NCBI GenBank assembly: GCA_009773005.1
Contig: WOUT01000003.1
Span: 1 to 64,000, forward strand
Length of the DNA stretch: 64,000 nt
Direction of reading: 5' to 3'
Source of the DNA: Chloroflexota bacterium
GTDB lineage: Bacteria > Chloroflexota > Anaerolineae > Anaerolineales > Anaerolineaceae
Shown: positions 40,965-61,635 of the stretch, in pieces
Numbering within the stretch: the first letter of the stretch is position 1
Layout: each line of letters begins with the position of its first letter
Position numbers and translations under genes: made by a program
Notes under the pieces: model-generated
The model's input: only the letters and a program-made list of their open reading frames with translations
Databases searched by the model: none
Told to the model about the DNA's origin: nothing

Positions 40965-41036
40965 GGGCGCGTAGCTCAATGGTAGAGCAGCGGCCTTTTA
41001 AGCCGTTGGTTAAGGGTTCGAGCCCCTTCGCGCTCA
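40965..41036 (+). tRNA. tRNA-Lys (anticodon UUU)
   Basis: A 72-nt cloverleaf. Acceptor GGGCGCG pairs with CGCGCTC (one G-U), D-arm around AGCTCAATGGTAGAGC, anticodon stem GCGGC/GCCGT with loop CTTTTAA giving TTT, and T-arm AAGGG-TTCGAGC-CCCTT. Discriminator A at 41036. CCA is not encoded. A 5-bp GC hairpin terminator follows 33 nt later. This is the nearest tRNA to the phage-like island and so a candidate integration site. Confidence 0.95.
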
Positions 41037-41068
41037 CACAGCATATATAGCGGTATTGTAAGTCGATT

Positions 41069-41657: not shown

Positions 41658-42014
41658 ATGGCAAAATCCAAACCACTCCCCGATACAGTTGAGGGACTCG
41701 ACCGCGAGATCGAGATTCTGCGCGGGCTGATCCGTCAGGCTGCTGAAAAGCAGAGCCCAGCGCTAAGTTTCGACGAACAGCTCAGCCTGCTCGAAACCGT
41801 CGGACGCACTGCGCCCGCCCTGGCGCGTTTGCTCAAGGCACGCCGCGACCTCGCCAACCAGGCGCTTGACCCCGCCGCTATGCTGCGCCAGGCGCTGCTC
41901 GAACTGGAAGAAGAATGGCCGGAGTTTAAGAAGTTTGGCGAACAATTCAAACCTTCGCGTCTTGTGCACCCTGACGCGCAGAGTCAGGGAAGGGAGGAGG
42001 AATCCGCCGCATGA
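41658..42014 (+). CDS. Putative phage small terminase-like protein
   Basis: A 118-residue charged, helical protein (VEGLDREIEILRGLIRQAAE, SLLETVGRTAPALARLLKARR, LRQALLELEEEWPEFKKFGE), located immediately before a terminase large subunit, the usual place for a small subunit. There is no clear recognised helix-turn-helix, so the call rests on position and composition. The start ATG 41658 follows GAGGTGACA. It overlaps the next small gene by four nt (ATGA). First gene of the GC-rich phage-like island. Confidence 0.5.
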   Translation: MAKSKPLPDTVEGLDREIEILRGLIRQAAEKQSPALSFDEQLSLLETVGRTAPALARLLKARRDLANQALDPAAMLRQALLELEEEWPEFKKFGEQFKPSRLVHPDAQSQGREEESAA

Positions 42015-42169
42015 CCCCCAAGACCCCCCGTTTAACTCGTGAAGAGAAAGAAGCCCTGCGCCGCCTGCGCGAGTTGATGCAGGAGCGCAAACAGTCCTCC
42101 AAAGTCACAAAACCATGCAAGTCCGGCTGGTCGCCCCAATCCCTGGTCACAGATCCCGCATGCAAGTAA
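42011..42169 (+). CDS. 52-residue phage ORF, overlapping the upstream gene
   Basis: ATG at 42011 lies inside ATGA of the preceding stop. The product begins MTPKTPRLTREEKEALRRLR and ends in a small cysteine-containing tail (TKPCKSGWSPQSLV, DPACK). No family recognised. Four-nt overlap and matching GC-rich codon use argue that it is real. It is followed 25 bp later by the terminase ATPase gene. Confidence 0.5.
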   Translation: MTPKTPRLTREEKEALRRLRELMQERKQSSKVTKPCKSGWSPQSLVTDPACK

Positions 42170-42194
42170 GAGTCATCCACCCAAGGCATAACCA

Positions 42195-43037
42195 ATGACC
42201 GAATTCATGCCCCTTTACAAGAAACTGCTGCGCGACCCGGTTGTCTTCGCCAGGCACGCCTCCAAGACCTCTTTGCGCAGCTATCAGCGCGGCGTGGCGG
42301 AGTCGATCGTGGATTCGGTGGTCAACGAGCGCGGACTGTCTTTCGTGATCATCTTCCCGCGCCAGTCCGGCAAGAATGAACTGCAAGCCCAGCTCGAAGC
42401 CTACCTGATGACGCTCTTTTCAAACTTCCCGGTGGAGATGATCAAGGTCTCGCCCACCCTGCTGCCGCAAGCCCTCAACGCCATGCGCCGATTTGAGCGC
42501 GTCATGCGCAAGAACACCCTGGTAGAGCAAGTATGGAAGAAAGAAGCCGGTAACAGTTACAAACTTGGCGAGGCGCGCATTACCTTCCTCTCCGGCGCGC
42601 CCGAAAGCAACATCGTCGGCGCCACCGCCTCGGGTCTGCTCGAAGTGGATGAAGCCCAGGAGGTGACCATCCTCAAATACGACCGGGATGTGGCTCCAAT
42701 GAGCGCATCGGTCTGCGCCACTCGCGCCTTTTGGGGCACCGCCTGGACGAGTTCCACCCTGCTGGCGCGTGAACTGCGCGCTGCCCGGGCTGACGAAGCA
42801 TGTGACGGCATCCGGCGCGTCTTCACCCTCACCGCGGATGACGTGGCTGCCGAGGTCAGCGCTTATCGCAAACATGTGGATGAGAGAGTCGCCCACCTGG
42901 GGCGCAGTCATCCGCTGATCCGCACGCAGTACTACTCGGAAGAGATCGACAGCCAGGGCGGCATGTTCCCGCCAGAGCGGATTGCCCGCATGCGCGTAGG
43001 GGCTGTCGGGGCGGGTTCGGAACCGTCCGTACAATAG
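42195..43037 (+). CDS. Terminase large subunit, ATPase part (5' fragment)
   Basis: A 280-residue N-terminal half of a phage packaging motor. Walker A in FPRQSGKNELQAQ at about residue 55, Walker B in LLEVDEAQEV, with the coupling motif around TSSTLL. It has the terminase-like start MPLYKKLLRDPVVFARHAS and adenine motif region SYQRGVAESIVDS. The frame ends at TAG 43035-43037, in a stretch (GAVGAGSEPSVQ) not expected in a terminase, and the nuclease half continues in another frame (43052-43807). So the gene is split; whether this is decay, recoding or a sequence error is discussed in findings. Confidence 0.75.
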   Translation: MTEFMPLYKKLLRDPVVFARHASKTSLRSYQRGVAESIVDSVVNERGLSFVIIFPRQSGKNELQAQLEAYLMTLFSNFPVEMIKVSPTLLPQALNAMRRFERVMRKNTLVEQVWKKEAGNSYKLGEARITFLSGAPESNIVGATASGLLEVDEAQEVTILKYDRDVAPMSASVCATRAFWGTAWTSSTLLARELRAARADEACDGIRRVFTLTADDVAAEVSAYRKHVDERVAHLGRSHPLIRTQYYSEEIDSQGGMFPPERIARMRVGAVGAGSEPSVQ

Positions 43038-43053
43038 TCTCCGCTCCGCGCGT
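42992..43053. repeat. Palindromic repeat-like insertion in terminase gene
   Basis: GTAGGGG at 42996-43002, the palindromic GGTTCGGAACC at 43014-43024, and GTCCGTAC at 43025-43032 form an imperfect palindromic unit resembling intergenic REP-type repeats. ACCGTCCGTAC recurs after the terminase gene at 43815-43825. The frame changes within this stretch. Confidence 0.4.
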
Positions 43054-43807
43054 GGGCAGTATCTATGCCCTGCTGCTGGATGTTGCCGGCGAGGACGAGG
43101 GCGTGCGCGGTATTTTCGGCAGTCTGACCCTTGCCAACCCGGCGCGTGACGCCACCGCGCTGACGCTGGTCGAAGTACGCTTCCCGTCTGCGGAAGATCA
43201 AGCAAGCGGCGTAAGGACAGGTTCTTCAAGGGCGAGTTCAGAACCCGCCCCCACCACCTTGCCAACCTACGCCCCGGTGCGCCGCTGGCAGTGGGTTGGC
43301 GTCAACCACACTCAACTGCACAACCTCATCCGCGACATCGCGCTCGAATGGAATGCGCGCGCCGTGGTGGTGGACGCCACCGGGGTGGGCGCCGGGCTGA
43401 CCTCCTTCCTTGATCGCGCCCTGCCCGGACGGGTGACCCCCTACACCTTCAACAGCGCTTCAAAATCCAGACTCGGCTGGGATTTTCTGGGTATCGTGGA
43501 TTCAGGGCGTTGGCGCGAGCCACTCTTCCCGGCTTTGCCCGGCAGCGAACAGGCGCGCTACCAAAATGAGTTCTTTGACCAGCTGCGTGCCTGCACTTTC
43601 GAGGTGATTGACGGACCCGAACAGCGCATGCGCTGGGGGGTGCCTGACGGCAGCCGCAACCCGGTCACCGGCGAACCCGTGCATGACGACTGGGTACTCT
43701 CCGCGGCGCTGTGCGCTTCGCTGGAGAGAATGGACTGGCGCGCCCCGGCCCCCTCGCTGATCATCCCCGCCCCCGATCCGCTGCGCGAGATGGATGGGAA
43801 GTATTAG
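43052..43807 (+). CDS. Terminase large subunit, nuclease part (3' fragment)
   Basis: A 251-residue C-terminal half with the RNase H-like nuclease start SIYALLLDVAGEDEG (first catalytic Asp), the WQWVGVNHTQLHNLIRDIAL region, the metal Asp in AVVVDATGVGAGL and the closing VHDDWVLSAALCASLERM. This is in the -1/+2 frame relative to the ATPase half. GTG 43052 is the first start codon, but the conserved frame extends back past it (RTIVSAPRVGS), so it is not necessarily a true start. A low-complexity insert (QASGVRTGSSRASSEPAPTT) at residues about 50-70 also looks like a repeat insertion. Confidence 0.7.
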   Translation: MGSIYALLLDVAGEDEGVRGIFGSLTLANPARDATALTLVEVRFPSAEDQASGVRTGSSRASSEPAPTTLPTYAPVRRWQWVGVNHTQLHNLIRDIALEWNARAVVVDATGVGAGLTSFLDRALPGRVTPYTFNSASKSRLGWDFLGIVDSGRWREPLFPALPGSEQARYQNEFFDQLRACTFEVIDGPEQRMRWGVPDGSRNPVTGEPVHDDWVLSAALCASLERMDWRAPAPSLIIPAPDPLREMDGKY

Positions 43808-43874
43808 TTTCGAGAACCGTCCGTACGATTCTCGATTCACGGATAACGATTCTCGGCATTTGAAAGGACCAACC

Positions 43875-44522
43875 ATGCTCTACGGAATAGACGTCAGCCG
43901 TTATCAGGAATTGATTGACTGGCAGAAAGTAAAAAAATCGGGTGTGCGCTTCGCCATCATCAAAGCCAGCGAAGGCGAGGGCTATATTGACCCGATGTTC
44001 GAAGAAAACTTGCGCGGCGCGGTGGAGGCTGGCATCCTGCCTGGCAGCTATCACTTCTTCCTGCCGCGCTACGACCCGCTGGCGCAAGCCCGCCATTATG
44101 TGCGTGTGCTGCAAGAATACGCCGTAGATGCGCCCACCCTGCCGCCCTGCATCGATCTGGAGAACCCGGGTCTGGGCAAGAGCGGGCTCAACCAATCGGT
44201 GCGCATCTTCCTGGAGGAGATCTTCCGCCTCACCGGGCGCAAGGGTATTCTCTACGTTTCGCCCGGATTTTGGAACTCCTACCTGCCCGTGCCGGTGGTC
44301 TCCGGTTACAAGCTGCTGCGCTCTGAGGTGGATTGGGCGGCGGATTACCCGCTGTGGCTGGCGCACTATACCACCGGGTGGCCCTATCAGATCCACCCCT
44401 GGGCAGGCTGGCGCTTCTGGCAATATTCCAGCGCGGGCAAGATCGCCGGCATCTCCACCAAGGTGGACCTCAACCTGTTCCACGGTACCGCGGACGAGCT
44501 CTCCGCGCTGGGGGCGGCATGA
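43875..44522 (+). CDS. GH25 lysozyme (phage endolysin)
   Basis: A 215-residue muramidase. Catalytic motif GIDVSRYQELIDW at the N-terminus, FAIIKASEGEGY, CIDLENPGLG with the catalytic Asp/Glu, WLAHYTTGWPYQIHPW and WRFWQYSSAGKIAGISTKVDL at the end are the GH25/Cpl-type fold. No signal peptide, so release needs a holin; a holin-like gene is at 48 kb. It is located between terminase and portal, an unusual place for lysis genes. Start ATG 43875 follows AAAGGACCAACC. Its stop overlaps the portal start (ATGA). Confidence 0.9.
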   Translation: MLYGIDVSRYQELIDWQKVKKSGVRFAIIKASEGEGYIDPMFEENLRGAVEAGILPGSYHFFLPRYDPLAQARHYVRVLQEYAVDAPTLPPCIDLENPGLGKSGLNQSVRIFLEEIFRLTGRKGILYVSPGFWNSYLPVPVVSGYKLLRSEVDWAADYPLWLAHYTTGWPYQIHPWAGWRFWQYSSAGKIAGISTKVDLNLFHGTADELSALGAA

Positions 44523-45955
44523 GCCCCGCCCGTGCTGGTCTGCTCACCCGGCTCGTGCAGCCAGTGATCGCCCGGTTGGTTCAGCCGGTCATTGACCGGC
44601 AGGTGCGCCGCGCCCTCTCCACCGCTGAGACGGATGCCTCCTTTGCCATCGGCAGCCGCGCGGGCGACACGCTCTCAGACCGCTATCCTTACGACCGCGA
44701 AGAGATTCAGCGTCAGGCATTGGAAGCGTGGCGGGTGAACCCGCTGGCGCGGCGCATCGTGGGGCTCACCTCGCAGTATGTGGTGGGCGGCGGCGTTAGC
44801 ATCTCTTGCCCGCACCCCGCCACCGCCGCGTTCCTGCGAACTTTTTGGGAGCATCCGCTCAACCGCCTGCCCGTGCGCGTGTACGAGTGGTGTGACGAAC
44901 TCACCCGCAGCGGCAACCTCTTTATCTTGCTTACCACCGACGCCTCGGGCATGAGTTACGCGCGCGCCATCCCGGCCGCGCAGGTGAGGCGCATCCTTTC
45001 CCGCCCCAACGACCTTGACCAGGAGACTGCTTTTGAGATGCAGCCCAACTGGGCGGAGGGCGAGCCGGTCGCCTGGCAGGTTTACGACCCGCGCGAAGAA
45101 CAGCGCACCTCAGAGGGGACTTTCAGACCTGTGATGCTGCATTACGCCATCAACCGCCCGGTGGGCGCGCAGTGGGGAGAATCTGACCTTGCCCCGGCGC
45201 TGCGCTGGCTCAGCCGCTACGCCGCCTGGCTGGAAGACCGCGCCCGTCTCAACCGCTTCAGGACTGCGTTTCTTTATATCGTGCGCGCCCGCTTCACCAG
45301 TGAAGCCGAACGCCGCGCCAGGCAGTCCTCACTCAACGCCGCGCCGCCCTCGCCGGGGTCGATCCTCGTCACCGACGAGAATGAAACCTGGGACGCGCTG
45401 CATCCGCGTCTGGAATCGGATGACGCCGGGCAGGATGGGCTGGCGCTCAAGAAGATGCTGGCAGCCGGGGCGGGCATTCCCATGCACTTCCTGGCTGAAC
45501 CTGAAGGATCCACGCGCACCACGGCAGAAGCCGCGGGCGGACCCACCTACCGCCATTTTGAACAGCGCCAGCGCTTCTTCCTGTGGCTGCTGAGCGACCT
45601 GCTGCGCGCGGTCGTGAACAGACGTTCAGCGGTGGACGGGCGCATTTCGCGCCGGGCAGAAGTCGCCCTCACCGGAGCGGATATTTCTGCGCGGGATAAC
45701 GTCTCGCTCTCCATGGCTGCCAACAACATCAGCGCTGTCTTGCGCGGCGTGCGTGACCGCGGTTTAATCGACGATGCTGAATTTCTGCGCCTGATCTACC
45801 GCTTCTGCGGCGAGAGCGTGGATGTGGAAGAGATGCTGGCGCGAGGCAAGACCGCTGGCTCGCGCGAACCCTCAAAGGGGGTGAAAACCGCCGCCCAACC
45901 GGTGAAAGTGGACCCTGAGACCGGAGAAGAAAAGACTGGAGGTGTTAATGGCTGA
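44519..45955 (+). CDS. Phage portal protein
   Basis: A 478-residue head-vertex protein. The open frame runs back to 44333 but the start at 44519 lies in ATGA with the lysozyme stop. The N-terminal LSDRYPYDREEIQRQALEAWRVNPLARRIVGLTSQYVVGGG, the central LFILLTTDASGMSYARAIPA, and FLYIVRARFTSEAERRARQ... with HFLAEPEGSTRTTAEAAGGPT are typical of SPP1/HK97-class portal proteins. It should form a dodecamer as the DNA entry ring. The tail end overlaps the next gene by 8 nt. This is the most secure phage gene with the capsid. Confidence 0.85.
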   Translation: MSPARAGLLTRLVQPVIARLVQPVIDRQVRRALSTAETDASFAIGSRAGDTLSDRYPYDREEIQRQALEAWRVNPLARRIVGLTSQYVVGGGVSISCPHPATAAFLRTFWEHPLNRLPVRVYEWCDELTRSGNLFILLTTDASGMSYARAIPAAQVRRILSRPNDLDQETAFEMQPNWAEGEPVAWQVYDPREEQRTSEGTFRPVMLHYAINRPVGAQWGESDLAPALRWLSRYAAWLEDRARLNRFRTAFLYIVRARFTSEAERRARQSSLNAAPPSPGSILVTDENETWDALHPRLESDDAGQDGLALKKMLAAGAGIPMHFLAEPEGSTRTTAEAAGGPTYRHFEQRQRFFLWLLSDLLRAVVNRRSAVDGRISRRAEVALTGADISARDNVSLSMAANNISAVLRGVRDRGLIDDAEFLRLIYRFCGESVDVEEMLARGKTAGSREPSKGVKTAAQPVKVDPETGEEKTGGVNG

Positions 45956-47915
45956 TAAAAACGAAATTCTAACAGTCCAAACCAGCCACCGCGCGCGCTT
46001 CACCACCTGTGAAAGGCTTACGGATGGCAAAACGATCGAGATCCTCGCCATCACTGCCGGTGCAGGTAACGGCTGGCAGTTCAGCCCAGATGTACTGCAA
46101 GTGTCCTTGGGCTTGTGGGAAGGCGTGGAGAGCTTCGTTGACCACGCCTGGTCGCCGCGCTCGGTTCGCGACCTTGCCGGGGTGTGCACCGCTCCGCGCT
46201 GGGATGACTCCCGCAACGGCATCTGTTTAAGGGTGACGCCGTTTGGACCCTCAGCGCCGGTGCTGCTTGACCTGGCTGGCGCGCGCGACCCTGCCCTGCC
46301 GCAAGCCCGCATCGGATTTTCGGCTGACCTGCTCTTCAGCGCCGCCGGAAACAGAGTGACGCGCATTGAAAAAGTATTCTCGGTTGATCTGGTCGCCTAT
46401 CCCGCCCGCGGTGGCGCATTTCTGCCGCCATCCGATCAATCAATACTTCAATCCCAACAGGAGGAAGAAATGGAAAGTAAGAAAATGCAAGAAGCCGTGC
46501 TGATGGAGAACTTGCCACCTGCGCCCTCTGGGGTGCACGCAGACCCCGGCAATGCGCCCTGCGGAGCGTCCAGCCCCGCTCCAGCCGAGCCAGCAGAGAC
46601 CACTCAGGAGACGCGCGAACAGATGTGCGCCTGCCTGCTGGATGCCACCCTGGCAGCCGCGCGCCTGCCCACCGCCCTGGAAACCAGTCTGCGTGCCCGC
46701 TTTGGTGGATTGGTGTTCCAGCCGCCCGCGCTGCAAACCGCAATTCGTGAAGCGCGCCAGTTGGTGAGCGACCTCACCGGCGGCGCGGTCATCCAGGGCG
46801 CGGGGCGCATCAGCGAGATGGCTTCTTCAGAAGACCAGATCAGTGTAGCGCTGCATGACCTGCTCGGCGCGAACCGCCCATCCGGGTTGGAAAAACTCCA
46901 GCCCGCGCACCTAAGCGGCATCCGCGAGCTTTACACCCTGATGACCGGCGACACTGATTTTTCGGGCGGTTACCACCCCGAACGGGTGAGATTCTCCACC
47001 ACTGCCAACCTGCCCGGCCTGCTCAAAAACGCCATGAACAAGCTCATTCTGAACCAGTGGGAGGAGCTGGGGCGCTCAGGCTACCGCTGGTGGGAGCCGG
47101 TGGTGCAGGTGGAGCGCTTCAACAACCTGCAGGAGATCACCGGCGTGCTGGTGGGTGAAGTGACCGTGCTGCCATCCGTGGCTGAAGGCGCAGCATACAC
47201 CGAGCTGGCGGTCAAAGACAGTGAAGAAACCGGCGCATGGGGCAAGTATGGTGGTTATGTGGGCTTGACCCTCGAGATGTTCGAGCGCGATGAAACCCAC
47301 CGCCTGCGCCAATATCCGCGCAAGTTGGCATCAGCCGCCCTGCGGCGCATCTCATCGTTGGTTGGCGGCATCTTCACTGCCAACAGCGGCATCGGCCCGG
47401 TCATGGCGGACACCTACAATGTCTTTGAAGCCGCCCACCACACCAACCTGGGCACCACCGCGCTTGGTTCCGCCGCCTGGGAAGCCGCCGGAAAAGCCAT
47501 CTATAACCAGCCCATGGCGGTGGCGAGCGGCGGCACGGCTCCCAAACAGGCTCTGGACGCCCGCTATTTGCTCGTGCCACGCGAACTGCGGCTGACCGGC
47601 ATGAACCTGCTCTACCCCTCCTTCGCGCATGAAAGCAGCATCTTCAGCGAGAATATGCAAAAGGGGCAAATGGGTGACGTGATCACCTGCCCCGAATTCA
47701 CCGATGCCAATGATTGGGCGGCTCTCGCTGATCCGCGCCTGGCGCCCGGCATCATTCTTGGCGAACGCTTCGGCGTGCTGCCCGAGATCATCATCGCGGA
47801 CGGTGAAACCAACGGCGCCCTCTTCACCCACGACGAGATTCGCATGAAGGTACGCCATTGGGTGAGCGTCTTTGTGGCTGACCACCGCCCACTTTACAAG
47901 GCTAATGTGGCGTAA
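45948..47915 (+). CDS. Prohead protease-major capsid protein fusion
   Basis: A 655-residue protein. Residues 1-165 match the phage prohead protease class (U35-like) with the conserved His in SFVDHAWSPRSVRDLAG and Ser in ARIGFSADLLF; the following 90 residues are a Pro/Ala/Glu-rich delta-like linker, and the C-terminal 400 residues look like a HK97-fold major capsid protein (NKLILNQWEELGRSGYRWW, GVLVGEVTVLPSVAEG, MADTYNVFEAAHHTNLG, GERFGVLPEIIIAD). At 46470 an in-frame ATG with a strong AGGAGGAAGAA upstream could start a separate capsid form. Start at 45948 follows GGAGGTGTTA. See findings. Confidence 0.85.
   Translation: MADKNEILTVQTSHRARFTTCERLTDGKTIEILAITAGAGNGWQFSPDVLQVSLGLWEGVESFVDHAWSPRSVRDLAGVCTAPRWDDSRNGICLRVTPFGPSAPVLLDLAGARDPALPQARIGFSADLLFSAAGNRVTRIEKVFSVDLVAYPARGGAFLPPSDQSILQSQQEEEMESKKMQEAVLMENLPPAPSGVHADPGNAPCGASSPAPAEPAETTQETREQMCACLLDATLAAARLPTALETSLRARFGGLVFQPPALQTAIREARQLVSDLTGGAVIQGAGRISEMASSEDQISVALHDLLGANRPSGLEKLQPAHLSGIRELYTLMTGDTDFSGGYHPERVRFSTTANLPGLLKNAMNKLILNQWEELGRSGYRWWEPVVQVERFNNLQEITGVLVGEVTVLPSVAEGAAYTELAVKDSEETGAWGKYGGYVGLTLEMFERDETHRLRQYPRKLASAALRRISSLVGGIFTANSGIGPVMADTYNVFEAAHHTNLGTTALGSAAWEAAGKAIYNQPMAVASGGTAPKQALDARYLLVPRELRLTGMNLLYPSFAHESSIFSENMQKGQMGDVITCPEFTDANDWAALADPRLAPGIILGERFGVLPEIIIADGETNGALFTHDEIRMKVRHWVSVFVADHRPLYKANVA
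46458..46472 (+). promoter_or_regulatory. Internal Shine-Dalgarno and ATG within the capsid fusion
   Basis: AGGAGGAAGAAATG at 46459-46472 (ATG 46470-46472) has the ideal spacing of 5 nt and is in frame with the fusion gene (codon 175). It would give a 481-residue capsid polypeptide without protease. Confidence 0.65.
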
Positions 47916-47925
47916 TGTCACACTT

Positions 47926-48023
47926 CTATCATTGCGAAGGCGTAAGCCCGGAGCAATCCCCTTGTAACCTGCAACTAAACGGGGATTGCTTCAACCTGCA
48001 CCAAACGCAGGATTTGCCTTCCT
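47926..48023. repeat. Imperfect palindromic repeat between capsid and holin-like genes
   Basis: Outer arms TCATTGCGAAGG and CCTTCCTCGCACTGA are imperfectly inverted, and the inner arms AGCAATCCCC (47952-47961) and GGGGATTGCT (47981-47990) match perfectly. This is the shape of REP-like elements that I have seen in Anaerolineae intergenic regions. Located inside the phage region, it marks mobility after phage integration. Confidence 0.55.
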
Positions 48024-48056
48024 CGCACTGACAGTAATAATTGAAAGGAACCCTTT

Positions 48057-48263
48057 ATGACTTTTTTCGAACAACTTAAAAAGATCGTCCGTTCACGCAA
48101 ATTCTGGGTATTGGTGGCTGCCTTGGTCGCTACTCTGGCAGCCTTCCTCACCCGTGAGATCAATGTCTGGCAAGCCCTGCAAGCCGCATTGGCCGCGCTG
48201 GCAGTTTATTCCACAGGGATAGCGATTGAGGATAACGGTTATGGATCCCAAAAACCACGTTGA
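48057..48263 (+). CDS. Holin-like small membrane protein
   Basis: A 68-residue protein with a basic N-terminus (EQLKKIVRSRKFW) and two hydrophobic stretches (VLVAALVATLAAFLTREI and ALQAALAALAVYSTGIAI), of the phage holin size. AAAGGAACCCTTT precedes the ATG. Its 3' end overlaps the next gene. Given a cytoplasmic GH25 lysozyme earlier, a holin role is plausible; a small structural membrane protein cannot be excluded. Confidence 0.55.
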   Translation: MTFFEQLKKIVRSRKFWVLVAALVATLAAFLTREINVWQALQAALAALAVYSTGIAIEDNGYGSQKPR

Positions 48264-48651
48264 ACAAACTCTTGCTGCGCATCTTGCGCACCCATTCATG
48301 CTGCCCGGTCAATCCGGGCAGCCCCTCTCTTGCCGCAGCCTGCCTGATGGCGGTATGGTGGTCATCGCCCAGGACGGGCGCAAGTTGTGGTTCACTCCGC
48401 TCGAAGTTGGCAGAGCCCGCAAAGAATTGAATCTGCCTGCCGTAAGGATTCCACAGAACCTTTCGGCTTCAAACGTGCCACACCTGCATGAACCGGACAC
48501 GAGACGACCTCAAATCACTTCGCGTCCCAGCGGAGGATCCAGAGACGGAATGTCGGAAATGATCGCTTTGCCGGATTCATTGAAACATTTGGAGGATAGA
48601 ATTCATGGCCGCACTGCAAGAGATAAAAAACCGCATACGCCAGGCGCTTGA
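48241..48651 (+). CDS. Phage-region protein of unknown function, 136 residues
   Basis: Starts at ATG 48241 and overlaps the holin-like gene by 23 nt and the connector gene by 47 nt. The first half contains LPGQSGQPLSCRSLPDGGMVVIAQDGRKLWFTPLEVGRAR, a beta-rich pattern; the second half is polar and proline-rich, likely disordered. No family recognised. In this position phages often encode a capsid decoration or stabilising protein, but I cannot support that from sequence. Confidence 0.5.
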   Translation: MDPKNHVEQTLAAHLAHPFMLPGQSGQPLSCRSLPDGGMVVIAQDGRKLWFTPLEVGRARKELNLPAVRIPQNLSASNVPHLHEPDTRRPQITSRPSGGSRDGMSEMIALPDSLKHLEDRIHGRTARDKKPHTPGA

Positions 48652-49255
48652 AGACAGCGCTGCAAGCCGTTTTAGTGACGGGATATTGGAAAGCGCCATC
48701 CGCCAATCGCTGGAGAGGATCAATGAGCGTCTACCGCGCGTCCTCACCAGCGAGGTCGTTGTAGAGACCTTCGGGCGCGATCAACCGCTGCCTTGAGTGG
48801 AAGGCTGCCGGTACTTGATCAATCTCGTCTATCCGGCAGGCGGCGCTTCCGCGCGTGAGATGGAACCGGAGACGCAGTTTTCTTACTCGCTTCAATCCGG
48901 GCTGCCGGAGCTGCATTTCAGCGGTTTGGAGATTCCCCAAGCGGGGGAGCGAATAACTGTGAGATACGCCGCGCAAAACACCCTCGGCGGGCTGGATTCT
49001 GCGGAGATCACCAGCCTGCCGCCGGCGGCTGAGTCCGCGCTGGTGAACGGCGCCTCGGGGTATGCCTGCCTGCTGCGTGCTGCTAATATCGCTGATGTAT
49101 ACGGCTCGCGCCCTGGTGAATCCGCGCGGCTGCTTGAAACCGGACGCTTACATCTGGAGCTTTTTGAGCGCACCCTGAATGGTCTGAAAGTGATGCAAGA
49201 GTTCGGCTTCCCGGTGGGCTTTGCGCTTGACGAGTGGGACCGGAACAGGAGTTGA
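48605..49255 (+). pseudogene. Phage head-tail connector/adaptor-like gene with in-frame TGA
   Basis: One continuous frame of 217 codons interrupted only by TGA at 48794-48796. Before it: a 63-residue part (LQEIKNRIRQALEDSAASRF, VVVETFGRDQPLP), after it VEGCRYLINLVYPAGGASAR and a helical C-terminus (ARLLETGRLHLELFERTLNGLKVMQEF). The conserved layout continues through the stop codon, so a full-length product of about 216 residues is intended. It resembles gp6-like head-tail connectors. Start ATG follows GGAGGATAGAATTC. A nonsense mutation, recoding or sequencing error is possible. Confidence 0.5.
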
Positions 49256-49257
49256 CC

Positions 49258-49743
49258 ATGCCCGCCCCCGCCATCGGCAAAGACTGCCACATCATCCTCT
49301 CACACCCCGATATCGATTCCGGCGCAGGCTATGGGTTTTTGCTCGCCGAAGATCAAAGCATCAAGTCCGGCGGCATCCAGATGACCCGCGAGGTCGATTC
49401 AGGCGGCGCGACCCGCCTGTGGCTCCACTTCGACGTCCTGCTCGCCAACCGCGCCCTCAACCCCGATGGCAGTTTCCGCGCCTATACCCGCGCCCAGGAT
49501 TATGCCAAGCTGTGCCAGTTCCTCTCCAAACGCGCGGATGTGACGATCACATCCCCTGCGGGGGCAGTTCTTTCCCTGGGCGCTGTGGGCTGGACGGCAG
49601 ACGAGCGCCACCTACCCGGTTCTGCCCTCATCAAGTGCCAGTTCAACAACGTGGGTGTCTATTGGCCGCCGGTCGATCCCGCCGTTCTTATGCTCTCGTT
49701 TTGGGATGGCTCCCTCACCTGGGCAACGTCCTATTGGCGCTAG
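49258..49743 (+). CDS. Phage tail or head-closure protein, unassigned
   Basis: A 161-residue protein: MPAPAIGKDCHIILSHPDID, GYGFLLAEDQSIKSGGIQMT, GGATRLWLHFDVLLANRALN, AQDYAKLCQFLSKRADVTIT, and an ending YWPPVDPAVLMLSFWDGSLTW. Beta-rich with no signal, typical of small virion proteins. Its position after the connector gene suggests head-closure or tail assembly. A longer start at 49234 would lie inside the connector gene; ATG 49258 is preferred. No family recognised with confidence. Confidence 0.5.
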   Translation: MPAPAIGKDCHIILSHPDIDSGAGYGFLLAEDQSIKSGGIQMTREVDSGGATRLWLHFDVLLANRALNPDGSFRAYTRAQDYAKLCQFLSKRADVTITSPAGAVLSLGAVGWTADERHLPGSALIKCQFNNVGVYWPPVDPAVLMLSFWDGSLTWATSYWR

Positions 49744-49791
49744 ATTTTTCCTGATCACGAATCACAAATCACTGATCAGCAAGGAGTTTAC

Positions 49792-50550
49792 ATGCCTTAT
49801 CCCCTCTCAACTGTCGTTACACCCGGTCAGCCCACCGCATCTGATCACTACAACAACCTACGCAAAGACGCCCTCAACCTCGGTCAGGCAGACGCGGACG
49901 TGGTGAACCTCGGCGTTTTCTTCAAACGTTTTATCATCGGCGTGAGGCTCGAACTCCTTCCCACCAACCGCGTACGCGTTCCCTTCGACACCATCAACCC
50001 GCCTACCCTCATGATTAACGGCTACATGCTCCAGGCTACCGCCAACGTGGATCTCCCCGCCGGTTCTTTCAGTGGTGGTGCCGCCACCTGGTATATCTTC
50101 GCCGTCCGGTCGGCAGCCTCCACCACCTTCACCCTTGCCGTCAATACATCTGCCGCCGAAGCAACCGATCAACGTCTGATTGGTCAGGCTTATTGGGACG
50201 GTTCCAACCTCGGAAGCGTGATCTGTTATTCAGCCGGTACTGCCCTGCCAACCGCAGATTATGATTCCGGCTGGTTTGCAGTCATTGGAAACACCACCTA
50301 CACCAAGGCGCACGGTCTATCCACCCAGCCCCGCTTGGTCGTGCTTTACCACGCCACCGATGCCGCCGGAACCAGCGAATGGGTGCAGGTTTTCATCGTT
50401 TCCACCGCCGCCACTTATGAGAATTCCATCCTTGGCGTTACATCGGCGAATATTGTGATCACTACCGGAGGCACAGGCAGCCAGCAATGCGTGTACTCCA
50501 CCCGCCGAGGTTCTTCCACCGGCTATTATCGCATCTTTGCCTGGCGCTAG
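49792..50550 (+). CDS. Phage tail-fibre/structural protein-like
   Basis: A 252-residue Thr/Ala/Gly-rich, beta-rich protein starting MPYPLSTVVTPGQPTASDHYNNLRKDALNLG; the middle has repeated small-residue segments (NVDLPAGSFSGGAATWYIFAV, AYWDGSNLGSVICYSAGTAL) and the C-terminus ends in YSTRRGSSTGYYRIFAWR. This composition and ending are common in phage fibre or baseplate proteins that carry an N-terminal virion-attachment motif. It has good Shine-Dalgarno (AAGGAGTTTAC). Ligand unknown. Confidence 0.55.
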   Translation: MPYPLSTVVTPGQPTASDHYNNLRKDALNLGQADADVVNLGVFFKRFIIGVRLELLPTNRVRVPFDTINPPTLMINGYMLQATANVDLPAGSFSGGAATWYIFAVRSAASTTFTLAVNTSAAEATDQRLIGQAYWDGSNLGSVICYSAGTALPTADYDSGWFAVIGNTTYTKAHGLSTQPRLVVLYHATDAAGTSEWVQVFIVSTAATYENSILGVTSANIVITTGGTGSQQCVYSTRRGSSTGYYRIFAWR

Positions 50551-50565
50551 TGTGAAAGGAAACCC

Positions 50566-50958
50566 ATGACTCACATCATCCGAAATTCAGACCTAACCAT
50601 CAAGACTTTCACAGAACGCGGAGATGACATCGTGCTTGCCGCCGGTGAAACCCTCGAGTTCTCCCCCCTGTCCTTCACGGATTACGCCAACCGGCTAAAG
50701 TTCAGCCTTGCCGGCAGGTCAGGCGAAACCATTTACATCCCCGCCGGTTCACCTGATCTGATCGTTTCCGTTTCCTGTCCTGGTGAAGCATCCATAGCCC
50801 TGATGGTCAACGGCATGCCCGAAACCGTGACATTGACCAACGGCATAGGCTCACTCACCCTCAGCGCGGAGGTTCCCGGACTTTACATCATCACCCCCGC
50901 CGACAAAACCAGATACTGCCCCGCCGGGCAGGCCACCCTGTTCATCGAGGTGAAATAA
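50566..50958 (+). CDS. Small beta-rich phage structural protein
   Basis: 130 residues: TIKTFTERGDDIVLAAGETLEF, IYIPAGSPDLIVSVSCPGEA, GIGSLTLSAEVPGLYIITPAD, all beta-strand rich. AAAGGAAACCC precedes the ATG. Its stop and the next start share one base (TAATG). No family recognised. It is next to the fibre-like gene, so an accessory tail or fibre protein is likely. Confidence 0.5.
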   Translation: MTHIIRNSDLTIKTFTERGDDIVLAAGETLEFSPLSFTDYANRLKFSLAGRSGETIYIPAGSPDLIVSVSCPGEASIALMVNGMPETVTLTNGIGSLTLSAEVPGLYIITPADKTRYCPAGQATLFIEVK

Positions 50959-51146
50959 TGGATAAAGCCACCAAACGCAACGGGATTTTTAAGCTTGAAC
51001 CGGACCCGGTCAAAACTAAAGCCAAAGAAGCCAAAGCCAGCCAAACGGCGGATCTCGCCGCGATTAAATCCAAATTGACTGACGAAGCGCTCCGCGCCAT
51101 CCTTGAACGGCTCCTTCACCGTCTTGAAGCATTGGAAAATTCCTGA
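50958..51146 (+). CDS. 62-residue phage-region protein
   Basis: A small charged protein with a helical C-terminal part (AIKSKLTDEALRAILERLLHRLEALENS) and a basic N-terminus (DKATKRNGIFKLEPDPVKTKAKEAKASQTAD). Start shares a base with the preceding stop. It is the last gene with the GC-rich phage-type codon use; what follows is host-like. Coiled-coil tail suggests oligomerisation; no family recognised. Confidence 0.45.
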   Translation: MDKATKRNGIFKLEPDPVKTKAKEAKASQTADLAAIKSKLTDEALRAILERLLHRLEALENS

Positions 51147-51209: not shown

Positions 51210-51911
51210 ATGTCAATTAAAGTCATGATCCCTGCAAGTTCAATGATCGATATCAAGAACACAACCCTTTTACTGGACTCGCCCCAAAGCTGTTCACGCT
51301 GTGACCAGCTTCCCGCTGATTTTTTTGAAAGCCACCGGTTGAAATTCAGAGCAGGGTATCAAAAAACCCATATTTTCGGAAAAAAATACAAGGTCGAAAA
51401 CAACTATACCCTCAAGATCCGTGTGTGCGAAACGTGTTATCAGGCAGACTATCTGACCAACCCTGAAATGCTTGACCGCGATGCCACCACTCAGGGCCGC
51501 ATCGCAAAATTTCATTCAATTGCCTGGACATTGGGCGGGCTTTTAGCTGCAGCGGGATTCTTGTTGTTAACTCCCATCATCCCTGATACCCCCGCATTAA
51601 AACCATTTAAAGACCTTTGGCAAGCGCCTGTTGCCGTCGGTGTATTGGTCTTGTTCTTGACATGGTTAAGCCAACGCAAGCAGCAGAGTTTAATCTTGCA
51701 TGCTCTCGATAGCGCTGGCAAAGATATCCGCTCATACTCCAGAGCAGAAGTACGCACTCCAATTCTCGCGGATGAAAACGACCTGTCAGCGGTTGCTTTG
51801 GAAATAAAATTTGACAATGAGGTTTGGGCAATGGAAACTGCAGCCATCCATCATTGGCTTACAGAAAAGATCACTTCATCTGATCAAACAGTCAGTTTTA
51901 TGCAAAATTAG
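51210..51911 (+). CDS. Membrane protein with N-terminal zinc-ribbon-like cysteines
   Basis: About 233 residues. N-terminal cytoplasmic region with CSRCDQLPADFF and, some 45 residues later, CETCYQADYL, a split zinc ribbon. Two hydrophobic segments (IAWTLGGLLAAAGFLLLTPI and WQAPVAVGVLVLFLTWL) separate it from a C-terminal domain of about 75 residues. ATG at 51210 follows GGAGG. Its codon use is host-like, not phage-like, and it follows the phage island. Function unknown. The next gene is 32 bp downstream. Confidence 0.6.
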   Translation: MSIKVMIPASSMIDIKNTTLLLDSPQSCSRCDQLPADFFESHRLKFRAGYQKTHIFGKKYKVENNYTLKIRVCETCYQADYLTNPEMLDRDATTQGRIAKFHSIAWTLGGLLAAAGFLLLTPIIPDTPALKPFKDLWQAPVAVGVLVLFLTWLSQRKQQSLILHALDSAGKDIRSYSRAEVRTPILADENDLSAVALEIKFDNEVWAMETAAIHHWLTEKITSSDQTVSFMQN

Positions 51912-51943: not shown

Positions 51944-52564
51944 ATGAGAGCAACCTTAACCGAAGATTCAGCAAAAATTTTTAGTGAACCCAATGAACAA
52001 ACAATTTCAGTAGCTACTCTTCACAAAGGGGATGAATTTGAGCTTGGAAAGATTCACAAAAAGAAAAAAAGCGTTTGGGTAGAGGTGATTCTCTCGCCAG
52101 GTCTGACCGGTTATATCTCTGGAGACACCAAGATTTTCGCAATCAAAGAAGTTCAACTGCTTAATAATTCGGTGGATATGTTTGATGCGCCCGCTGAAGA
52201 CGCAAACATTGTAAAAACTTATTCCAAAAAAGCCATCTTTACCGCGGTCGGGATCGAAAAAGAGGAAGGCAAAGGCTGGGTGCGGGTGAGGGATGATGCG
52301 GGCGCCGAAGGGTATATTCGTGGTGATGCAAAGATCAGAATCTACCAGCCAGCCACAAAGGCAAGCGGTAAAAAACTAATGATCACAGGAGGAATTTTTA
52401 TTGGTATGGGAGTCGTGATCTATATTTTTTCGATGTTTCAGGCTCAAGCAGCCAGAGATTCATCACTTATCATGGTCGCCTTAGTGGGGCTTGGTTTGAT
52501 GCAACTAATCCAGGGGTTCTTGCAATATCGCAGGATGTCAAAAACTGAAAACAATCCGAAATAA
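51944..52564 (+). CDS. Membrane protein with tandem SH3-like domains
   Basis: 206 residues: two SH3b-like repeats in the N-terminal two thirds (first: ISVATLHKGDEFELGKIHK, VWVEVILSPGLTGYISG; second: NIVKTYSKKAIFTAVGIEKEEGKGWVRVRD, AEGYIRG), then two hydrophobic helices (ITGGIFIGMGVVIYIFSMF and SLIMVALVGLGLMQLI) and a polar tail. An unusual orientation: the SH3 part lacks a signal peptide and precedes the membrane helices. It has a Shine-Dalgarno (ACGAGGAAACCA). Likely cotranscribed with the preceding membrane gene. Confidence 0.6.
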   Translation: MRATLTEDSAKIFSEPNEQTISVATLHKGDEFELGKIHKKKKSVWVEVILSPGLTGYISGDTKIFAIKEVQLLNNSVDMFDAPAEDANIVKTYSKKAIFTAVGIEKEEGKGWVRVRDDAGAEGYIRGDAKIRIYQPATKASGKKLMITGGIFIGMGVVIYIFSMFQAQAARDSSLIMVALVGLGLMQLIQGFLQYRRMSKTENNPK

Positions 52565-52571: not shown

Positions 52572-52600
52572 AGACCGGAGAAAATTCCAGTCGATTTTAT
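52572..52600. terminator. Weak hairpin between SH3-like and signalling operon genes
   Basis: GACCGGA pairs with TCCAGTC (one mismatch-type wobble) followed by GATTTTAT; convergent transcripts meet here. Confidence 0.35.
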
Positions 52601-52609
52601 CATCTCGGT

Positions 52610-54889
52610 TTATTTTTCATTAATAATATCAATACACACATCCATTATGTCCGGGTCAAAATGTGACCCGGCGCTTTTACGCAGATTTTCCAACGCATCT
52701 TCTTTCGATCTGGCTTTGTTATACGGACGATCACTGGTCATGGCATCATAAACATCAAAAATAGCAAATATTCTGGCTGTGAACGGAATTTCTTTTCCTT
52801 TTAATCCGCGCGGATATCCGGTTCCGTCCCATTTTTCATGATGACAATAAGGCACGTCCAACGCCTGCTTTAAAAATGCTATCGGCGCAAGCATTTCATA
52901 CGCATATTCGGGATGTTTCTTCATGGTCATCCATTCTTCATCCGTTAGAGGTCCTGGTTTGTTCAATATGAAGTCAGGAATACCCACCTTGCCAATATCA
53001 TGCAGCAGAACCCCGCGCCGTAAATTCGCCATATCTTCATTTCTCACACCCAGGCGCTGGGCGGCCTCCATCGTTTTTTCTAACACACGCGTAGTATGAC
53101 CTTCCGTCACTTTATCGCGCAAGTCAAGGAAATTTGCCCATCCCATTAATGTATCGTCATAGGCTTGCAAGAGCACAGCTTGTGATTTTTGCAGATCTGA
53201 GAAGTTCTGAGAATTATCGAGGGCAATCGCAGCTTGTTGTGCCAACGCCTCAAAGAAGTTGAGCCATTCCCGACCTGGTTCAAGTTCAGACCGGTGATAG
53301 ATTTCAATGATCCCCTTGATTTGCCCCTTGATTACCATTGGAGTTGCCAGATATTTAATGAATTTTTCCTGTTTTATGATATCGGCGATAGCAGGAGACG
53401 AAACCTGATCCTGTTCCAGATTTACTTGTATGGTCTTTTTAGAAGCGACTGCCTCTGATGGAAGAGGTGTATGCCGCAGCGCAGTGCGCAGCGCTATCTC
53501 TGCGGTTCGAAAGCCAAGCCCGGTCAGGAATTGATACTGAATTAGTTCAACCTCAAACTGTAATATCGCGGCTGCGTCAACATGCAGCACCTGCCTTAAT
53601 TGGTCAAGCAATACTTGATACGTCACCCGCAAATCGAACGATGAAGTGATGGCTTTATCTATTTGGTGCAGGGCGTTAATCTTCTCCATTTGCTCCCGCA
53701 GACGTCCTTCCGCCAGAATGCGTTCGGTAATATCACGCCCAATTCCTTCTACAAACTCCAGTTGATCCTGCGCGTTCTTAATGATCGCGCAGCGTAACTC
53801 GATCCAAATCATTTTTCCGTCTTTTCTTTCAAAAGGCAGATTGATCAGTGGGGTATCAGGATTAAACGCCCAGGCATAAAAAGATTCCGCGTCGATTGTT
53901 TTGAGTGATTGGCCTAAAATAATTTCCGGATTTGCATAAATCTCGTTCTGGGTATAACCCGTCACTTTCTCCACTGCCGGGCTAAAATATTCAAAAACAA
54001 CTGCGGGGCTTACTCTGACGCGAAAGATCACATCCTGCGCATTTTCAGCCAGAAGTCTGAAACGCTCTTCGCTCTCTCGCAGCGCTTCCTGTTCTTTTTC
54101 CAGCATCACCAGATGATGCGCATTTTCAAGGATCACCGGCAGCCGCACGAGATAACCGCTGGTTTTAACCAAATAATCCATTGCCCCCAGCTTGAGAATT
54201 TCCACCGCTTTCTCTTCGCTTCCTTGACCGGTAACCACAACCACAGGCGTCTTGATCTTTTTTTCACGAAAGTACGTAACCAATTCCACGGCGCCCTTTT
54301 CGGGCAGGTGATAGTCTAGCATTAACACATCAAAAGCCTTTGAAGCGTCAGTCGTGGTTAACCGTTTGATCACCTCCTCACCTGTAGTTACAACTTCAAG
54401 ATCGAAATGAGGAGCATGCGTTTTAAAGTATAGTCGCGTTAGGTCGACATCTGTGGCATTGTGTTCACCGTACAATACGCGAATTGATTGAGTCTTTGGG
54501 GCTGCTGACTCTTTATACTGATTTAGAGCCTTTCTCAAGGTTTCAGGTAATTCTTTAAGATAGTTCCGTCGTTTGACGATATAATCCGTCGCGCCAGTCT
54601 TCAAAGAGGCAATTGCGGTATCCTCATCTCCCTGCCCGGTTACAATCACTACTGCTACAGGTTTTCCTGTTTTCCTGATTTCCGAGAGTATTGTCAATCC
54701 ACTGCCATCAGTAAGGTGCATATCTGTGAGAATTAAGTCAAATGGATCGGGTTCTTGAGCGTTCAAAAAGTCCAAGGCTTCTGCCATCGTTCTGGCAAGA
54801 ACCAATTCAAATTCACCCTCACATTTTTTCAAAGTCACCCTGACGAGGTCGGCATCTAATGGATTATCCTCAACATAAAGTAATTTCAT
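52610..54889 (-). CDS. Dual-receiver, PAS, GAF and HD-GYP signalling protein
   Basis: 759 residues. Two receiver domains (residues about 2-120 with LTDMHLTD; about 135-255 with LMLDYHLPE), a PAS domain (ERFRLLAENAQDVIFRV...), a GAF domain (residues about 400-560) and a C-terminal HD-GYP domain with HTTRVLEKTMEAAQRLG, GVLLHDIGKVGIPDFI and CHHEKWDGTGYPRGLKG. It probably degrades c-di-GMP in response to phosphorylation by the adjacent kinase. The start at 54889 overlaps the preceding receiver gene's stop by 4 nt. Last gene of a three-gene operon. Confidence 0.9.
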   Translation of the reverse strand: MKLLYVEDNPLDADLVRVTLKKCEGEFELVLARTMAEALDFLNAQEPDPFDLILTDMHLTDGSGLTILSEIRKTGKPVAVVIVTGQGDEDTAIASLKTGATDYIVKRRNYLKELPETLRKALNQYKESAAPKTQSIRVLYGEHNATDVDLTRLYFKTHAPHFDLEVVTTGEEVIKRLTTTDASKAFDVLMLDYHLPEKGAVELVTYFREKKIKTPVVVVTGQGSEEKAVEILKLGAMDYLVKTSGYLVRLPVILENAHHLVMLEKEQEALRESEERFRLLAENAQDVIFRVRVSPAVVFEYFSPAVEKVTGYTQNEIYANPEIILGQSLKTIDAESFYAWAFNPDTPLINLPFERKDGKMIWIELRCAIIKNAQDQLEFVEGIGRDITERILAEGRLREQMEKINALHQIDKAITSSFDLRVTYQVLLDQLRQVLHVDAAAILQFEVELIQYQFLTGLGFRTAEIALRTALRHTPLPSEAVASKKTIQVNLEQDQVSSPAIADIIKQEKFIKYLATPMVIKGQIKGIIEIYHRSELEPGREWLNFFEALAQQAAIALDNSQNFSDLQKSQAVLLQAYDDTLMGWANFLDLRDKVTEGHTTRVLEKTMEAAQRLGVRNEDMANLRRGVLLHDIGKVGIPDFILNKPGPLTDEEWMTMKKHPEYAYEMLAPIAFLKQALDVPYCHHEKWDGTGYPRGLKGKEIPFTARIFAIFDVYDAMTSDRPYNKARSKEDALENLRKSAGSHFDPDIMDVCIDIINEK

Positions 54890-55326
54890 CGTGACAGCTC
54901 CGGTCGAACATTAAGCGCAGTCCAATAATAACAAAGCGTTGAAACGAGTTCAACGAACTTATCATAATCCACTGGTTTAATAATATACGAATTCGCGCCA
55001 TATTCGTAGGCAAATTTGATATCGCTTTCGTTGGTGGATGATGTCAAAACTACTATCGGAATATTCGAGGTTTGAGTTGTGCTTTTAATTTTTCTCAATA
55101 CTTCCAGACCTGTGACCTTAGGCAGATTTATATCCAGTAAAATCAACCCGGGTAAAGAAGCGCCAGTTTTCCATTGCTCCAATAATTCCAGGACAGCAGC
55201 GCCGTCACGTAGAATTTCTACCGGGTTAATAAAATTTATCCGTGTAAAAGCACGTAACGTTAGATCCGCTTCCATGGCATTGTCTTCTACTAAAAGTACA
55301 CTGAGTTTCTGAGGATCAGATGTCAA
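54886..55326 (-). CDS. Single-domain response regulator
   Basis: 146 residues with the receiver fold: acidic pocket VLLVEDNAMEAD, phosphoacceptor in LILLDINLPKVTG, Thr/Ser in VVLTSSTNESD and Lys in YIIKPVDYDKF. No output domain, like Rcp1/CheY-type phosphorelay intermediates of phytochrome-like kinases. Its start (TTG) overlaps the histidine kinase stop by 4 nt and its stop overlaps the HD-GYP gene, so it is a relay component. GGAAATACCGCT precedes the start. Confidence 0.88.
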   Translation of the reverse strand: MTSDPQKLSVLLVEDNAMEADLTLRAFTRINFINPVEILRDGAAVLELLEQWKTGASLPGLILLDINLPKVTGLEVLRKIKSTTQTSNIPIVVLTSSTNESDIKFAYEYGANSYIIKPVDYDKFVELVSTLCYYWTALNVRPELSR

Positions 55327-58745: not shown

Positions 58746-58756
58746 ATCATATTACA

Positions 58757-58773
58757 GTAGTCTGGTAGACTAC
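58757..58773. promoter_or_regulatory. Perfect 7-3-7 palindrome upstream of the kinase gene
   Basis: GTAGTCT-GGT-AGACTAC lies 12 bp before the 58745 start. Together with three GTAGAAGAGGTTG direct repeats just further upstream it looks like a regulator binding region. If the true start is at 58526, the site is about 230 bp from it. Confidence 0.45.
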
Positions 58774-58777
58774 ACAA

Positions 58778-58834
58778 GTAGAAGAGGTTGCAATGTAGAA
58801 GAGGTTGTGTAGGATTGCAATGTAGAAGAGGTTG
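58778..58834 (+). repeat. Three direct repeats of a 13-bp motif
   Basis: GTAGAAGAGGTTG occurs at 58778-58790, 58795-58807 and 58822-58834; copies one, two and three are identical over the 13 bases, and the CAAT or CAAG after it is shared in part. On the kinase's coding strand they read CAACCTCTTCTAC. The spacings are 17 and 27 bp. Confidence 0.6.
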
Positions 58835-59701: not shown

Positions 59702-59704
59702 GGG

Positions 59705-61601: not shown

Positions 61602-61635
61602 GAGAGTATTGTACAACTTGCTAAGTTTTATTAAA

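Follow-up and report, generated by a model that had tools for sequence, protein, structure and literature searches.

A compact, vertically inherited phage-head module of Anaerolineaceae that is probably a gene transfer agent

Well-studied gene transfer agents (GTAs) are few and come mostly from Alphaproteobacteria, where the orthologous head-tail cluster of type I agents such as RcGTA includes a tape measure; the Bartonella GTA is reported to carry its own replication region. According to the excerpted text of PMC9662315, BaGTA (Bartonella) and VSH-1/BhGTA (Brachyspira) are independently domesticated, vertically inherited caudoviricete heads, and GTAs have six defining features: caudovirion-like particles made of caudoviricete-derived proteins, packaging of mostly random host DNA, a fully endogenised genome (often at several loci), genes of their own that cannot all be packaged, mostly vertical inheritance with host co-diversification, and delivery of the DNA to other cells. 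Protein similarity is accepted there as a test of caudoviricete origin. Excerpts of two further papers report that RcGTA clusters use cheaper amino acids and owe their raised GC to codon positions 1 and 2 (PMC7360931), and that the RcGTA TerS binds DNA non-specifically (PMC7947584). Head-tail elements of Thaumarchaeota have been proposed to be GTA-like; the excerpt of PMC6563490 describes no identifiable attachment (att) site or replication genes in them, an intact morphogenesis module and, in some, a protease-capsid fusion. For Chloroflexota, a literature search limited to openly licensed PMC papers, mostly by their titles and the openings of their abstracts, found no report of a GTA. Here we analyse a phage-like gene block at positions 41658-51146 of a 64,000-nucleotide window, i.e., the whole stretch of DNA studied (contig WOUT01000003.1 of assembly GCA_009773005.1, from a Chloroflexota bacterium of the family Anaerolineaceae).

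This block probably encodes the structural proteins of a phage head that has been domesticated, is passed on vertically and bears a short podovirus-like tail; most likely it is a GTA of the Anaerolineaceae. The evidence consists of the genes themselves, the predicted folds of two products (the head-to-tail adaptor and orf10), the motifs of TerL, a common chromosomal place, the tree of the genus, purifying selection, and dispersal of the genes in some relatives. A first-pass annotation had described a GC-rich 9.5-kb block with terminase, GH25, portal, protease-capsid, holin-like, connector and fibre genes, and open reading frames (ORFs), GC and family matches bear it out: the module is a tight run of 13 genes (~9.5 kb, plus strand), confirmed in ORF order and coordinates, with a GC content of 0.604 against 0.485 in positions 1-41000 and 0.468 in 52600-64000. 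Two further genes, orf14 (51210-51911) and that of an SH3 protein (51944-52564), accompany it in all nine mapped genomes of the genus, the window's included. In the following list homologues are counted over 41 mapped loci, the window among them, on the capsid's strand from -6 to +11 kb, and ratios of non-synonymous to synonymous substitution rates (dN/dS) refer to three relatives. In order, the genes are:

41658-42014, plus strand: putative TerS, 118 aa, named by its position before TerL; homologues in 26 of 41 loci
42011-42169, plus strand: small ORF of 52 aa between TerS and TerL, read from the sequence
42195-43037, plus strand: ATPase half of TerL, with Walker A (PRQSGKNE) and Walker B (LLEVDEAQ); 65-72% identical to TerL of eight genus relatives
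43052-43807, plus strand: nuclease half of TerL (PF17289, 5e-5; phrog_5909, 1e-6)
43875-44522, plus strand: GH25 lysozyme, an endolysin (PF01183, 2.4e-43); dN/dS 0.04-0.05
44519-45955, plus strand: portal (phrog_10963, 4.2e-33); dN/dS 0.06-0.09
45948-47915, plus strand: prohead protease fused to HK97-type major capsid protein, 655 aa (PF25209, 4e-29; phrog_4523/133)
48057-48263, plus strand: small membrane protein, hydrophobic by eye, called holin-like from its position and appearance; homologues in 21 of 41 loci
48241-48651, plus strand: orf8, unknown; homologues in 12 of 41 loci; dN/dS 0.26-0.31
48605-49255, plus strand: head-to-tail adaptor (connector), with an in-frame TGA at 48794-48796
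49258-49743, plus strand: orf10, tail-tube-like ring protein by its predicted fold
49792-50550, plus strand: fibre-like protein with a PA2794-like C-terminal domain (PF22432, 1e-5, just under cut-off; profile A6 matches 3h6j, 4e-5)
50566-50958, plus strand: orf12, unknown; in six of nine mapped genus genomes
50958-51146, plus strand: orf13, small, unknown; in three of eight genus relatives (L034, L036, L038)
51210-51911, plus strand: orf14, with CxxC and hydrophobic stretches; dN/dS 0.10-0.12
51944-52564, plus strand: SH3-domain protein with C-terminal hydrophobic stretches (PF08239, 2e-7); dN/dS 0.07-0.09

When 67 ORFs from outside the module were compared with the extended regions of the eight other genus genomes, the same genes were found to flank it on both sides in six of them and on one side in G008 and G009, where the contig ends soon on the other. 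The capsid proteins of these eight genomes, alike in place and gene order, differ by 24-30%. Relative to its flanks the module has the opposite orientation to the window's in all eight, so that an inversion of the block, along with the neighbouring genes for the HD-GYP protein, response regulator and kinase, seems to have taken place in the lineage of the window. The phylogeny of TerL+portal+capsid was set against that of rpoB (quick IQ-TREE, LG+G4) for 28 of 30 genomes, G019 and G031 having been dropped with fewer than two of the three genes in the mapped locus; 14 of 25 branches are shared. Within the genus (nine members) element and rpoB branching are identical, although three of the rpoB branches there are supported only at 50-77, and nine of the ten rpoB branches with a Shimodaira-Hasegawa-like approximate likelihood ratio test (SH-aLRT) value of at least 95 over the 28 genomes are also present, similarly supported, in the element tree. 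Mantel tests give r = 0.955 for the genus (9 genomes), 0.805 for the family (20) and 0.970 over all 28, each value being reached by 0 of 2000 permutations. The module is inherited vertically within the genus and is not a visiting phage.

Its genes are under purifying selection (dN/dS 0.03-0.31). As calculated with our own NG86 script for 12 module-linked genes and three close genus members (G009, G012, G013), dN/dS is 0.04-0.17 for TerS, TerL, GH25, portal, capsid, adaptor, orf10, fibre, orf14 and SH3; the holin-like gene has values of 0.03-0.08, and those of orf8 are the highest. One TerS pair was saturated and gave no value, and several dS exceed 1. Because phage genes too evolve under purifying selection, these values count only together with the evidence for inheritance. 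Both signs that the first-pass annotation had named as support for domestication are found, namely the same module at the same place in conserved order in eight genomes, and purifying selection, as on the portal; its suggestion that only part of the block is under selection finds no support, all 12 tested genes having dN/dS of at most 0.31 (orf12 and orf13 lie outside this set).

The head genes are recognisable by family and motif. In a 26-row alignment of TerL (A4), Walker A, Walker B and the nuclease regions are conserved; this alignment omits the window's broken TerL, in whose two halves the motifs were seen by eye. The A4 profile matched nuclease chains of phage terminases in the PDB (E 0.003-0.004). 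The putative TerS matched nothing in Pfam above cut-off and nothing in PHROG below E 0.1, and a DNA-binding domain was not recognised in it. At the gap between TerS and TerL, other loci sometimes hold an ORF of 69-163 aa (clusters 22 and 26), comparable in position to the window's 52-aa ORF. The protease-capsid fusion also matches NF045541 (1e-30), yet far below that model's cut-off, and in its N-terminal part 40, 39 and 40 of 41 homologues retain H66, S125 and D147, respectively, a pattern that fits a prohead protease of the serine type in which these residues would be catalytic. For the holin-like protein, family scans gave no match above cut-off.

For the tail, structures were predicted; profiles of orf10 and the adaptor gave nothing useful against PDB sequences. 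The adaptor of a relative (L114) was modelled with a predicted local distance difference test (pLDDT) score of 89.8; its best Foldseek match is the tail of phage KHP30 (6.7e-8), followed by GP4, P1, N4 and others, RcGTA's included, and VIA gives Z 12.7 to GP4 over 177 residues. With matches mostly to adaptors of short-tailed phages, the model confirms a podovirus-type adaptor. The window's own copy of orf10 was modelled with pLDDT 87.2, and baseplate, tail-tube and neck chains lead both the Foldseek and the VIA matches. Its predicted tail-tube-like fold is assigned with moderate confidence, because the Foldseek matches stop short of E 0.001 (best 0.0037) and the top Z in VIA, 9.1 over 100 residues, is little above that method's usual background of 7-8. 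'Connector' and 'fibre', names given in the first-pass annotation, are thus upheld by the fold of the relative's adaptor and by the PA2794-like C-terminus, respectively.

Integrase, attachment repeats and replication genes beside the structural genes, the hallmarks of a functional temperate prophage, were not found. The window's contig (84,977 bases) has no match to the integrase family PF00589, of which there are 12 match rows on other contigs of the genome; no att-like direct repeat shared by both module edges was found; and family scans of the block's proteins recognised no replication gene. A tRNA-Lys gene at 40965-41037 was considered as an attachment site and rejected: the same tRNA lies on the module's other side in L034-L037, no copy of its end is present at the window's far edge, and none was found within L031-L033 and L038. 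The tape-measure model PF10145 has no match in the genome, a weak negative in that it scores in only 7 of 14 control genomes. The first-pass annotation had likewise seen neither integrase nor tape measure, and had named as refuting its view a nearby integrase and tape-measure gene outside the window, or a different phage at this place in each strain; neither was found, by the same searches of contig and genome and by the shared place of the module.

The GC-richness is a property of relatives as well: TerL, portal and capsid are richer in GC than their flanks in 24 of 26 loci, by 0.09 on average (29 loci were computed, and L039, L044 and L134 dropped with flanks below 2 kb). In all nine genus genomes GC at codon positions 1, 2 and 3 (GC1, GC2, GC3) lies above that of the flanking ORFs, and side-chain carbon per residue is lower in eight of nine. 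Such an anomaly need not mean recent arrival, because RcGTA clusters are likewise GC-elevated. Next to the module, on the minus strand (52610-58745), lie genes for an HD-GYP protein, a response regulator and a PAS/GAF sensor kinase, also found in G009, G012 and G013; they might regulate it.

The window's capsid was found in 43 of 101 genomes searched, its own included. Within Anaerolineaceae the capsid is present in 101/147 genomes and in 50/64 good ones (at least 90% complete, at most 5% contaminated), and the TerL profile matches 105/147 and 58/64, both mostly as one copy; the TerL counts include partial or distant matches (short in G011, G525 and G049, distant and multi-copy in G517, G522 and G523). 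Two full capsid copies occur in three genomes of one genus (G022, G567, G571). G517, G522 and G523, of genus g17, each have ~10 matches to a more distant TerL relative spread over many contigs, perhaps a separate amplified phage or satellite family. Over the phylum, 61 of 400 genomes drawn have a matching capsid. In the family f41 (large genomes) 23/29 have it and in f45 6/6, as a rule once each. A homologue of TerL was found in 28 of the 41 mapped loci; the figures are 32 for the portal, 34 for the adaptor, 25 for orf10 and 17 for the fibre.

In some relatives the genes are dispersed. Among seven mapped f41 loci, TerL lies within range in one, and the portal is on the capsid's strand in three, on the opposite strand in three and not seen in one. 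In the single contig of G031, TerS-TerL lie at ~886.5-888.7 kb and the portal, whose match contains one TGA, at ~2609-2610 kb on the other strand; the genes for capsid, holin-like protein, adaptor, orf10 and fibre are at ~2635.6-2640.5 kb. On a circular contig the shorter path between terminase and capsid would measure ~1.2 Mb; this gene set could not be carried by a phage as one piece, although the window's 9.5-kb cluster might fit into a head. TerS-TerL-portal and capsid-to-fibre stand ~60 kb apart on one contig of G019 (possibly chimeric), and G027 has TerL on the opposite strand and its portal after the capsid. Genomes G513, G515 and G516 were not taken as proof of dispersal, the pieces being on different contigs and some at contig ends. 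We tentatively entertain, as a serious possibility rather than the expected outcome, an ancient GTA lineage across Chloroflexota in which Anaerolineaceae, f41 and others descend from one podovirus-like domestication, its cluster among the smallest and without a tape measure, and its genes since scattered, reordered, tail-swapped or decayed.

Under the reading as a GTA, the cell would make TerS/TerL, portal and protease-capsid protein under some signal, and the protease would mature the shell. The terminase, in whose TerS a DNA-binding domain was not recognised, would pump in pieces of host chromosome, and adaptor, tube-like ring and fibre would close the vertex. Holin-like protein and GH25 lysozyme would free the particles by lysis, and adaptor, ring and fibre would deliver the DNA to kin, which would take it up. 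Particle formation, the content of the particles, lysis and delivery of host DNA are thus all presumed. On present evidence the module works like a GTA, its identity as one being unproven, and it has three of the six defining features in the excerpt of PMC9662315: proteins derived from caudoviricetes (capsid, portal, TerL and endolysin by similarity, adaptor by fold, all known here from genes alone); full endogenisation, often at several loci (neither an integrase on the contig nor an att repeat was found, and the genes stand at three loci in G031, at two in G019 and in broken order in G027); and mostly vertical inheritance with host co-diversification (genus topology, nine of ten strong rpoB branches, Mantel r 0.81-0.97 and shared flanks, with 3/19 branches in conflict).

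Several points weigh against this reading and are taken here with the explanations that they favour. The system is known from its genes, and particles, packaged DNA and transfer are what we infer from them; the composition test, moreover, had flanking ORFs as its only comparator and no viral homologues. The tail end also varies: in five Anaerolineaceae loci (L039, L041, L047, L050, L147) neither orf10 nor fibre was recognised, two other ORF families (clusters 32 and 33; 332-559 aa) follow the adaptor, and the adaptor is short (142-166 aa) in four of the five. Exchange of tail modules is possible in these loci, and head and tail parts may therefore have separate histories. Nine large ORFs that follow adaptor or fibre in other Anaerolineaceae were scanned and gave no convincing tail match (best phrog_31834, tail, 0.008). 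One of the nine is a family 1 glycosyl hydrolase; such an enzyme follows the module in G024 (L050:14837-16237). A hub-like protein of 650-720 aa occurs in eight loci, all outside Anaerolineaceae; six were scanned, of which three have weak PHROG tail/baseplate-hub matches (7e-6, 1e-10, 1e-5), two sub-threshold Pfam hub matches and one none. In L133, L135 and L137 (f45) two orf10-like genes (135 and 145 aa) immediately precede a hub-like gene (654-670 aa), and no ORF between them is long enough to be a tape measure. Among the window's module genes no hub-like protein was recognised, and the window's genome was not searched for one.

These features would suit a head domesticated for another use, such as a lysis or killing particle, a DNA-storage or protein compartment, or DNA export for a biofilm matrix: vertical inheritance and selection show only usefulness, there is no tape-measure match and no hub-like protein recognised in the module, and tail genes vary in the family. 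We nevertheless regard such a use as unlikely, since TerL motifs, portal, adaptor, tube-like protein and fibre, all needless for a mere compartment, are kept in the genus.

Signs of decay also count against a working GTA. In the window two genes are broken, as the first-pass annotation had said, TerL by a frame break near 43035-43052 and the adaptor by its in-frame TGA, and both are intact in the eight mapped genus relatives, where TerL is a single ORF of 476-587 aa and the adaptor one open ORF of 211-221 aa. The TerL break falls inside the variable linker between the ATPase and nuclease halves, beside a palindrome, GGGTTCGGAACC, at 43013, which has 12 matches at no more than two mismatches against 5.3 expected in an interspersed-repeat test; short pieces of the GGGTTCGGAACC type lie at 43005-43023, 43236-43254 and 43814-43829, in and after TerL, one of them beside the frame break. 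Recoding of TGA was set aside in view of the single open adaptor ORF in all eight relatives. In the window's genome rpoB (L194, G000:C10) is itself broken into two frames where residues are read as X (probably N), so that assembly faults are possible; this is no proof that the breaks in TerL and the adaptor are such faults. Either the window's copy was recently inactivated or the assembly is at fault, and in this strain the module may be silent. Elsewhere, 6 of the 16 genomes of the genus lack the capsid. An example of decay by internal deletion comes from G004 (L210, G004:C39): TerS, a truncated TerL and the 3' genes are kept, GH25, portal and capsid are gone, and TerL is joined directly to the orf8-adaptor end. 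G002 and G011 hold TerS and TerL pieces cut by contig ends, the TerL of G002 also with a stop, and in G001, G006 and G007 neither capsid nor TerL was matched; G001 has the left-flank genes in order, with module and right-flank genes not found in place within the 60 kb read. The portal of G008 is split over two frames, and stops lie inside the capsid match in five f41 genomes (G212, G274, G383, G416, G440).

An ordinary defective prophage, or a remnant sitting here by chance, would account for the two broken genes, the G004 deletion, the two-frame portal of G008 and the lack of an integrase on the contig. For the lineage a plain remnant is already contradicted by the same place and order in eight genomes with 24-30% different capsids, a genus tree equal to that of rpoB, dN/dS far below 1 and mostly one copy in the family, and we consider it quite improbable.

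Viral kin are also to be reckoned with. Against the 50,697 phage records of INPHARED, the capsid's best match is 31% identical over half its length and the portal's best match, ranked by E-value, is 23% identical; both belong to Microcystis phage Mae-JY22, which differs from the module in being a 41-kb phage with 61 annotated features. Thirty-seven IMG/VR 'viral' contigs carry close portals, leaving virus-borne kin possible. Ten ORFs outside the module on seven of these contigs code for a MatE transporter, two UvrD helicases, a DNA methylase, a lamin-tail-domain protein and five unmatched proteins, with no integrase or phage structural gene at E 0.001, and some of the contigs may therefore be host chromosome. 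In the element tree, 3 of the 19 equally well supported branches disagree with rpoB; they concern other genera and make some horizontal movement or a poor host marker likely. A still-mobile Chloroflexota phage lineage of unusual site fidelity would fit the IMG/VR relatives, these conflicts between genera and the exchange of tail genes within the family, but it is very unlikely given terminase, portal and capsid far apart in G031, two places in G019, no close phage in INPHARED and IMG/VR flanks of the kind described.

Hardly credible is a satellite that depends on a phage for its tail but not for its capsid, like a capsid-forming phage-inducible chromosomal island: satellites are marked by an integrase, a mobile distribution and the lack of lysis genes of their own, and although small size, head genes with terminase and no tape-measure match recall one, the module has no integrase on the contig and no att repeat, its own GH25 lysozyme and fibre, and a fixed place in the genus, mostly as one copy. 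Of the options that the first-pass annotation had listed, podovirus-like and GTA-like elements thus stand, the former by the adaptor fold, and the plain degraded prophage and the satellite do not.

If the module is a GTA, a new phylum would have self-made gene-transfer particles, and so small a cluster would be a system for asking which GTA parts are needed, with cultured carriers (Ornatilinea, Longilinea, Bellilinea) in which it can be examined. At the locus of Ornatilinea apprima P3M-1 (L040), TerS, TerL, portal, capsid, holin-like protein, orf8, adaptor, orf10 and fibre were all recognised, but no GH25; Longilinea and Bellilinea have the alternative tail genes. It would also suggest that some public 'viral' contigs are host chromosome, and would let the idea of selection on GTA genes for cheap, GC-rich proteins be tested on an independent case.

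Among known systems, short-tailed phages with beta-bearing adaptors (KHP30, GP4, N4, SU10) share the adaptor fold with the module and are complete viruses with replication genes. RcGTA and the alphaproteobacterial type I agents (rhodogtaviriformids) resemble it in endogenised head genes with a terminase, vertical inheritance, elevated GC, several loci and proposed packaging of host DNA, and RcGTA chains are among the fold matches of both orf10 and the adaptor. Unlike RcGTA, the module has a podovirus-type adaptor with a beta insert, a protease fused to the capsid, no tape-measure match, a length of only ~9.5 kb and a host of another phylum. GC is up and carbon down in both, but the effect in RcGTA, as excerpted in PMC7360931, is carried by GC1/GC2 and that of the module by GC1/GC2/GC3. 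BaGTA and VSH-1/BhGTA, likened here by description, are like the module domesticated, vertically inherited heads, in hosts of different phyla. The Thaumarchaeota elements, in the excerpt of PMC6563490, are three highly divergent ones for which lineage-wide synteny and co-divergence are not in evidence, in contrast with the module. The module is therefore most likely an independent GTA-like lineage, one with no recognised tape measure and a podovirus-type neck.

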